Positions 1 through 19,540 of a stretch of DNA of 64,000 nucleotides are shown here, piece after piece. The stretch comes from an uncultured Spirochaeta sp. (GTDB taxonomy: Bacteria > Spirochaetota > Spirochaetia > DSM-27196 > Alkalispirochaetaceae): assembly GCA_913030605.1 (NCBI GenBank), contig CAJWEZ010000004.1, positions 1 through 64,000 on the forward strand. The letters are read 5' to 3'. Positions within the stretch are counted from its first letter, which is position 1, and every line of letters starts with the position of its first letter. The notes under the pieces were generated by a model, which was given only the letters and a program-made list of their open reading frames with translations, had not been told where the DNA came from and searched no databases. The translations under genes were made by a program, and so were the position numbers.

Positions 1-37
1 TGTAGCAGAATGGTTTGACAATTTCATTCTACCTACA
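1..37. other. imperfect stem-loop at the left edge
   Basis: TGTAG-c-AGAATG pairs with CATTCT-ac-CTACA, giving eleven base pairs with a small internal loop around a 12-nt loop. No T-run follows on the plus strand, and the sequence to the left is missing, so its role (terminator of a gene outside the window, or part of the AT-richer left edge) cannot be judged. The first 80 bases are visibly AT-richer than the rest of the window. Confidence 0.35.
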
Positions 38-84
38 GAAATGGGAGGTGCAAGCTCTTCTTTCTTTCCTCTCCCTTTTAACCG

Positions 85-235
85 GACAGCAGTGATACAG
101 AAGCGTGTTGCAGAACTGCGGACAGGTCACGCACACAGAAGGACTTGTGGGCGGCGAACGCCGGAGCCTCTCGCATCTCGTTGTCCGTCCGCATGATACG
201 GTGAAACCTGCAACAATCTCCTGTATACTGCCCGC
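85..235 (+). repeat. 150-bp inverted-repeat element, copy 1
   Basis: The two ends are an imperfect inverted repeat: left arm GCAGTGATACAGAAGCGTG + TTGCAG (89-113), right arm CTGCAACAATCTCCTGTATA + CTGCC (209-233). The same arms, spacing and orientation recur at 19343-19494. Internal similarity between the copies includes ACTTG followed by a small GC hairpin, and GTC-GCA-ATAC just before the right arm. The element ends about 15 nt upstream of the Shine-Dalgarno site of the next gene. It matches no RNA family or IS that I recognise; a MITE-like element or a structured RNA are both possible. Confidence 0.75.
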
Positions 236-4047: not shown

Positions 4048-5208
4048 TCACCGGGGCATGTGTCCAGCCCGATCCTTGTACGGAACCGCGTCGTCGAGCA
4101 TGGCGATCTGGACGCGCTCGTAGGAGTTGATGCGGTCCATGTTGGCCTCCAGGATCGCCTGCATGTGGCGATCGAAAAAACGATGCAGGCTGTAGGTGGA
4201 AATCGAACGGAAGCCGCGGCGCACCTTGTGCTGCGATCCCATGCCGGGATCGAACACCCGGATCCCTTCTGCGATCGCCCACTCGATGGGGGCGTAGTAG
4301 CACACGTTGAAGTGCAGATCCCGGGCATCGCGACGGGTCCCCCAGTAGCGTCCCAGGACGCGGTCACCCTTGCGTACCAGGAACGCCAGCGCCAGCGGGT
4401 CCTCATCCTCCGTCGTCGCCGCCACGAACCACGCGTGCTGCGCCACGTCCGCGGGCATATCCGTGAAGAACTCCCGGGTGAGGAACTGCGCCGCGTAGGG
4501 CCCGAACTGCTCGTTGGTGCGGAGGTAGTAGTCCGCCATGCGATCGAAGTACCACCGCGGCGCGTCGGGGGCGTGAATCACACGAATGTCGATTCCCTGC
4601 TCCTCCATGCTCGCCCGTTCGCGGCGGATGTTGCGGCGCTGGTTCTTGCGGAATCGCGCCAGGTAGTCATCGAAGGACTCGAACGACTCGTTGTACCACT
4701 CGTACCCGTGGTGCTCCCACGTGGTCATACCCAGGCCGGCGAGACGATCCCGCCACTCGGGCTCGACGAAGTTGAACTGCAGTACGCGAATTTCGTTCTC
4801 ACGGCAGAACTGTTCGATCGCCTTGAGGATCGGTTCCGCCAGCTCGTCCTCACGTCCCGGGACGGTGAGGATGCGGAACGCCGGCGAGGGGCTGGCGGGG
4901 CTCATGCCCACCATCTTGGGGTAGTAGCTCATGCCGAGCTCGCCGGCGACCTCGGCGAAGGCGAAATCAAAGACGAACTCTCCCCAACTGTTGGTGCGCA
5001 CGTACAGGGGAAGCGCCGCCACCATATCGCCACCCTCGTGGACGGTGAGGTGGCTCGGCGTCCACCCGGCGCCGGGGACGATGCTGCCGCTGTCCTCGAG
5101 GTGCCGAAGCCACTCGTGACTCATGAGGGGGGTCGACGCGGTCTCCGCGAGACGGTTCCATTCCGACGCGTCGATATAGGCCATGGATTGGTGCCACCGG
5201 TAGTCCAT
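4048..5208 (-). CDS. COG3146 / DUF482 GNAT-like protein
   Basis: A 386-residue cytoplasmic protein of the COG3146 (DUF482) family, often annotated as peptidoglycan biosynthesis protein because of its FemAB/GNAT-like double fold. Typical segments are LMSHEWLRHLEDSGS, the basic stretch FRKNQRRNIRRER near residue 195, LGRYWG and FDPGMGSQHKVRRGF in the C-terminal half. The acceptor and donor are not known for the family. The gene starts at ATG 5208 with TAGCTT 6 nt upstream. It ends 19 nt before pncA and its 5' end lies 20 nt after the HIT gene stop, so the run may be partly co-transcribed. Confidence 0.85.
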   Translation of the reverse strand: MDYRWHQSMAYIDASEWNRLAETASTPLMSHEWLRHLEDSGSIVPGAGWTPSHLTVHEGGDMVAALPLYVRTNSWGEFVFDFAFAEVAGELGMSYYPKMVGMSPASPSPAFRILTVPGREDELAEPILKAIEQFCRENEIRVLQFNFVEPEWRDRLAGLGMTTWEHHGYEWYNESFESFDDYLARFRKNQRRNIRRERASMEEQGIDIRVIHAPDAPRWYFDRMADYYLRTNEQFGPYAAQFLTREFFTDMPADVAQHAWFVAATTEDEDPLALAFLVRKGDRVLGRYWGTRRDARDLHFNVCYYAPIEWAIAEGIRVFDPGMGSQHKVRRGFRSISTYSLHRFFDRHMQAILEANMDRINSYERVQIAMLDDAVPYKDRAGHMPR

Positions 5209-5228
5209 GGCTGCAAGCTACTGACAGA

Positions 5229-5573
5229 TCAGCCCGGCGGCCACCCCAGCTTGCGCCCGGCAAGGATGTGGGCGTGGATGTACGGTACGGTCTGCATCGC
5301 GTCGCGGCCGGTATTGAACACCACGCGGTACCCGTTCTCCTCCAGTTCGAGGGTTCGGGCGGTTTCCGCGATGCCGTGGATGATGTGGCCCATCACCTCC
5401 GGCGAGTGGCTGGTGCTCTCGGCGATACTCTTCATGCGCGTGCGCGGTACCACCAGAACGTGCACCGGCGCCTGGGGATTGATGTCCCTGAACGCAACCA
5501 CGTGGTCGTTCTGGAAGACGATGTCCGCCTGGGTGTCCCCGGCGATAATCTTGTCGAAAATGGTTTCTTCCAT
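5229..5573 (-). CDS. HIT family nucleotide hydrolase (HINT type)
   Basis: A 114-residue histidine-triad protein, likely a purine nucleoside phosphoramidate or AMP-lysine hydrolase. The N-terminal TIFDKIIAGDTQADIVF and VHVLVVPRTR are standard HINT segments. The triad near the C terminus reads QTVPYIHAHILAGR: the second (nucleophilic) and third His are kept, but the first His of the HxHxH motif is Tyr. The start is set at ATG 5573 (MEETIFDK) because TACGAT sits 6 nt upstream; the track's earlier start would place that hexamer inside the gene. Confidence 0.88.
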   Translation of the reverse strand: MEETIFDKIIAGDTQADIVFQNDHVVAFRDINPQAPVHVLVVPRTRMKSIAESTSHSPEVMGHIIHGIAETARTLELEENGYRVVFNTGRDAMQTVPYIHAHILAGRKLGWPPG

Positions 5574-19342: not shown

Positions 19343-19494
19343 CCGGGGGCTGTATCCAGAACGTTGTTGCAAAACGGCTGCGAACTCGCGGTCCGGAAAA
19401 CACTTGGGGCTGTTGAGACGCCCCCGCGGCCCGAACTCCTGACGGGGTCAGCACATACCTCCCGATCTGCAACATTCTTCTGTATACAGCCCGG
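19343..19494 (+). repeat. 150-bp inverted-repeat element, copy 2
   Basis: Left arm GGGCTGTATCCAGAACGTTG + TTGCA, right arm CTGCAACATTCTTCTGTATA + CAGCCC, forming a long imperfect stem. Length and internal landmarks match copy 1 at 85-235. Where the outer stem differs between copies (AGCAGT/ACTGC in copy 1, GGCTGT/ACAGCC in copy 2) both sides change together, so pairing is preserved. Copy 2 lies between the convergent lipoprotein gene and the tRNA-Ala terminator. Confidence 0.75.
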
Positions 19495-19504
19495 AGTGCA
19501 AACC

Positions 19505-19533
19505 AAAAAAAAAGACCGCCCGGAGGGGCGGTC
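19505..19533 (-). terminator. intrinsic terminator of tRNA-Ala
   Basis: On the minus strand GACCGCCC-CTCC-GGGCGGTC followed by nine T residues, 7 nt after the tRNA. Confidence 0.93.
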
Positions 19534-19540
19534 CCAATCG

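Follow-up and report, generated by a model that had tools for sequence, protein, structure and literature searches.

The window analysed here is a stretch of 64,000 nucleotides from a Spirochaeta-like MAG of 4.07 Mb in 100 contigs (G000), and it carries two copies of a short inverted-repeat element (Table 1). Both copies had been placed in a preliminary description of the sequence and are confirmed at their positions: they align along their entire length, their ends read GGCTGTATACAGAAGnn-TGTTGCA plus the inverse, and a profile built from 22 genomic copies has exactly these two matches in the window (E=2.8e-32 and 1.9e-25). In the interval that separates copy 2 from the tRNA gene, the minus strand carries a GC-rich hairpin and T run (19492-19540), probably the terminator of the tRNA transcript. 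The outer flank of copy 1 (window 1-87; TTTTAACCGGACAGCAGTG...) is common to this copy and to elements close to the termini of contigs C20 and C49 (the ends of L011 and L015) for up to ~80 bp further, as if the three elements were inserted in, or formed part of, a larger repeat.

Table 1. Coordinates of the element copies and their parts in the window
Feature	Position	Strand	Remarks
MITE copy 1	88..232	+	~145 bp; extra base in left end (GCAGTGATACAG); inner span 110 bp
Left terminal inverted repeat, copy 1	88..112	+	Closes with TGTTGCA box 106-112; from sequence
Right terminal inverted repeat, copy 1	209..232	-	TGCAACA 209-215 ... CTGTATACTGCC; from sequence
Putative inner contact positions, left half of copy 1	124..146	+	A124, T127, A143, T146 (19, 22, 38, 41 from box)
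MITE copy 2	19348..19491	+	144 bp; inner span 110 bp; between ORF ending 19337 and minus-strand tRNA gene
Left terminal inverted repeat, copy 2	19348..19371	+	GGCTGTATCCAGAACGTTGTTGCA; TGTTGCA 19365-19371
Right terminal inverted repeat, copy 2	19468..19491	-	TGCAACATTCTTCTGTATACAGCC; TGCAACA 19468-19474

Anatomy of the element

A typical copy is ~144 bp long with 24-bp inverted ends of the layout GGCTGTATACAG-n5-TGTTGCA; the left end alternates between CTG and CAG across copies, and the right end is mostly CTG. A consensus drawn from 22 copies forms a palindrome of ~166 bp, since the element consists of two inverted half-elements. Positions 19, 22, 38 and 41 from the TGTTGCA box (A, T, A and T) are conspicuous on both sides, and the conserved columns A49, T52, A68 and T71 of the copy alignment, together with the half-element profile, are the basis for the inner positions of copy 1, which may represent protein contacts. 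When the half-element profiles of G000, G003 and G002 (a different species of this genus) are compared, a shift of 0 gives the best agreement, which fits extra length being located in the centre of the element. No reading frame common to the copies was seen, and the overlap of a crude gene finder with 13 copies was judged unreliable. A weak outward-facing box, GGTGYAACC/GGTTGCACC, stands outside some ends (columns 2-10 and 161-169 of the 22-copy alignment); it resembles the TGTTGCA box and may reflect a target preference.

The preliminary description had taken a compensatory change in the outer stem as evidence for pairing, and had offered a folded RNA or DNA cruciform under selection as one alternative and a MITE whose transposase recognises the ends as the other. 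The contrast itself (AGCAGT/ACTGC vs GGCTGT/ACAGCC) is present in the two window copies as one apparent paired change, and the conserved inverted ends could pair. Across 22 copies, however, the outer stem holds 2 double changes vs 2.4 in shuffled data, 90.0% of its cells are paired vs 90.3%, and the covariation score is 0.038 vs 0.043, so that the paired change in the window copies provides no evidence for pairing. Pairing is absent at columns 17/154 in 10 and at columns 26/145 in 12 of the 22 copies, RNAalifold places pairs at the ends only, and the sole Rfam match is the neighbouring tRNA, with no family for the element. The consensus is palindromic because it joins two inverted transposon ends, and selection on structure, whether of a folded RNA gene or of a DNA cruciform, is in our assessment highly improbable; of the two initial alternatives, the MITE is the one that the data favour.

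The dispersed family and the resident insertion sequence

The expectation of many copies in the genome was borne out, as the family has at least 42 full-length copies scattered through G000. Copy 2 as query returned five strong full-length matches and ~50 end matches from this genome, and a sequence-only profile from 22 copies returned many full copies and several half copies. The exact pattern TGTTGCA, 82-112 bp, TGCAACA gives 38 elements, with none for the reversed control, and fuzzy ends bring the number to 42, with inner spans of 110 bp (37 copies), 109 bp (four) and 120 bp (one). Integron attC sites were considered and rejected, as the copies are single and dispersed and do not form arrays beside gene cassettes.

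L171 and L172 are two copies with 94.5% identity between their ends; the homology stops at GGCTG/CAGCC and the flanks are unrelated. The search for target-site duplications gave a divided result: exact 8-bp direct repeats (GGGCACCT, CGTCAAAG and GCTGATCG) flank 3 of the 42 copies (chance ~0.02-0.04, calculated by hand), but none were detected in the remaining copies and the sum over all 42 has no clear excess, so in most copies a duplication either disappeared or was never present. Duplications of 8 bp resemble those of IS1.

Many contigs of G000 stop inside half an element, a trail that led to a multi-copy insertion sequence (IS) whose assembled copies in this genome are all incomplete. No shared duplications pairing the fragmented IS copies at contig ends were found; among nine wider-family IS copies of G008, a complete genome, two have flanking repeats of ~10-12 bp. 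The IS transposase is encoded by a single ORF of ~390 aa (389-404 aa in several relatives), and its alignments contain paired cysteines (zinc ribbon) and an HTH, along with conserved acidic residues that fit a DDE motif. Assignment to IS1 or ISL3 was rejected, as the NCBIfam scores (ISL3, 36.6 vs a cut-off of 180; IS1, 31.7 vs 100) lie far under the curated cut-offs. The protein shares the zinc ribbon, HTH, DDE-like motifs and weak profile matches with these families and appears from its sequence to be related to them only distantly; the single ~390-aa ORF and a MITE with two left ends set the present system apart. Pfam matches were below cut-off, a search of solved structures returned nothing credible, and a structure prediction from five relatives was unusable (pLDDT 42). 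Of 46 genomes of the order, 33 contain relatives of the transposase; among species genomes, a scan gave matches in Spirochaeta and other spirochaete MAGs only, and plasmids gave no match. On contig C49 of G000 (L137 3874-5448) a transposase gene is flanked by two complete MITEs, and on contig C118 of G043 (L310 around 4155-5501) a MITE follows immediately downstream of a transposase gene; both arrangements may be compound elements.

Scored against the half-element layout, the left end of the IS in G000 reaches +11 to +12 (shuffles -25, sd 9), with the best register at exactly 0. The left ends in G003 (p=0.0075, register 0) and G002 (p=0.044) match as well, and all four marked positions can be read in the left ends of IS copies from the three genomes. 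The right ends in G000 and G003 have no match to the inner pattern of the half-element. From these comparisons the MITE resembles a head-to-head junction of two left ends. The multi-site layout shared with the left end of the resident IS, the number of copies, their unrelated flanks and the three 8-bp duplications all support the MITE of the preliminary description. As short, non-coding sequences dispersed in many copies, with inverted ends in common with an IS, the elements are very probably MITEs of the resident IS family, and its transposase presumably mobilises them in trans.

Length classes, helical period and a proposed role of synapsis

The main feature of the family, which the preliminary description missed, is a length that is locked and helically quantised. 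Interior identity averages 44% among the G000 copies (28% for shuffled copies), and nearest-neighbour pairs with at least 60% identity contain 576 substitutions and 0 indels, a comparison that is confined to 110-bp copies and shows the absence of compensating indels, while the length counts show no net change. The ratio of 0 indels to 576 substitutions argues against drift alone, and we hold with high confidence that element length is constrained, although the particular length in G000 could have been inherited from one founder.

Exact boxes in G002 give 21 elements (control 0) with spans of 109 (two), 110 (two), 117, 118 (four), 120, 121, 122, 130 (four) and 132 bp (five), and fuzzy ends add 131 and 141. 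Spans are 110 and 109 bp in G003, 120, 120 and 124 in G001, and 131-132 in G038 from another family of the order, all three sets being matches to a profile built on 110-bp copies. Those of G043 are 131 and 132 when the outer ends are read; a 110-bp pattern match in this genome was rejected because it stops at an inner box and the outer ends give 132. Overall, the related families have spans of ~110, 117-122, 130-132 and 141 bp, with a spacing near the helical repeat. Among 19 collapsed values, hand-chosen to represent the lineages of G002 and, genome by genome, the different lengths, the Rayleigh R at 10.5 bp is 0.76, a value not attained in 50,000 uniform draws, and the best period is 10.9 bp (bootstrap 10.45-11.5). 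The spans are thus quantised near 10.5-11 bp.

These classes could also arise in an ordinary MITE that follows no helical rule, with lengths inherited from founders and lying about ten bases apart by chance. The independent founders are few, as all 21 G002 copies merge into one cluster at 65% identity and the 11 collapsed lineages of G002 alone give p=0.019, and the 117-118 bp lineage of G002 lies ~2.5 bp off the 10.5-bp comb. Founder lengths account poorly, however, for the absence of indels, for the occurrence of the 131-132 class in separate genera and of the 120 class in G000 also, or for the R value of the collapsed spans, and size ranges are broad in other bacterial MITE families (PMC10969869). 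We therefore consider this alternative unlikely, and helical phasing in synapsis the likely source of the length constraint.

A length-phased MITE, derived from two inverted IS left ends and moved by the IS transposase, is in our judgment the best explanation and a probable one. The element would be a non-autonomous derivative of two inverted copies of the resident IS left end, each end forming a ~60-bp multi-site platform composed of the terminal palindrome GGCTGTATACAG, the TGTTGCA box and two inner contact patches ~18 and ~37 bp inward from the box start. The transposase would bind both ends, and as the element's length is close to the DNA persistence length, the ends would be paired by bending or looping the DNA between them. 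Because pairing would work only with both ends on the correct helix face, only lengths near whole turns (spans of ~110, 120, 131 and 141 bp) would keep moving, while the middle sequence would drift freely. The family and its relatives suggest that the transposase must join both ends on the same DNA face, and we infer that the length rule acts through synapsis. Several observations weigh against this model: a duplication is detectable in so few copies, the IS right end has no inner pattern, G000 has no complete assembled copy of the IS, one lineage is off the comb, and the complete genomes G008 and G012 carry 12 and 14 wider-family IS copies and no MITE by this profile. Strict box patterns applied to 46 genomes of the order gave, outside genera g1 and g9, isolated matches only, at a chance-like level.

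Bacterial MITEs such as Correia/CREE, ERIC, RUP, Chunjie and QMITE are likewise short, gene-free, dispersed, mostly intergenic and IS-related with inverted ends, and their sizes vary widely (Chunjie 178-235 bp, QMITE1 39-400 bp; PMC10969869), whereas here the length is locked despite nearly saturated sequence. That review of prokaryotic MITEs makes no mention of helical phasing, and we found no natural bacterial case of a helically phased MITE in a limited search of open-access literature. REPINs (PMC3116915) also have two inverted conserved ends and a free middle and are long-lived in the genome; the ends here are 24-bp IS ends and not REP hairpins, and the matching transposase found here is not a RAYT. 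The closest parallel in length is provided by the IESs of Paramecium, short transposon-derived DNA with a size periodicity of ~10 bp that is explained by looping between the ends in the excision complex (PMC3464196). Those elements are eukaryotic, are excised by a domesticated piggyBac transposase, are selected for excision and decay by deletion over many peaks, whereas the present ones are bacterial, occupy few length classes and are apparently selected through mobility. Activity that is periodic with end distance is reported for engineered short IS1 and IS50 derivatives (Lane 1994; Goryshin 1994, as cited in PMC3464196), which are laboratory constructs, while the pattern described here occurs in a natural genome. 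Helical phasing is already known from these engineered transposons and from Paramecium IESs; the present system adds a bacterial MITE family apparently length-locked in this manner. If this is correct, substitutions are free and length changes survive mainly as approximately whole helical turns, so the family would provide a natural read-out of the geometry of transposase synapsis. Such phasing would also explain why this family, unlike other bacterial MITEs, does not shrink, and would make the length spectrum of divergent copies a simple test for other MITE families.

Genomic context of the copies

According to a crude codon-usage gene finder, 11 of the 24 clearly intergenic copies lie between convergent genes, as compared to 7 of 39 gaps in the window, and copies so placed are often within 10 bp of stop codons. 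This placement suggests that copies insert or survive where they do no harm, and it is also compatible with a role in termination.

The context bears on a further alternative, in which the copies are former MITEs now maintained by the host as nucleoprotein sites, with a host protein that would bind the two ends and loop or wrap ~140 bp, for example in chromosome organisation or transcription termination, and with length selected in place rather than by way of transposition. Such sites would be consistent with interiors that have diverged while ends and length stay intact, in copies that are not decaying like dead MITEs, as well as with the clustering at gene 3' ends and the terminator-like hairpins in the centre of some copies. 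They are difficult to reconcile with copy numbers that differ, inside a single genus, between none found and 42, with ends and an inner pattern that match the IS left end in register, and with near-identical copies in unrelated places, three copies being flanked by 8-bp duplications; we regard host-maintained sites as improbable. The more specific proposal, that former MITEs now form length-locked, two-ended loops of ~140 bp between convergent genes, kept by the host for chromosome structure or termination, seems to us likewise improbable. The central hairpins are GC-rich, are followed by a T run and leave the length class unchanged; they were seen at C4:78059-78168 in G000 (beyond the window) and at C114:726-857, C199:5063-5194 and C126:21392-21523 in G002.
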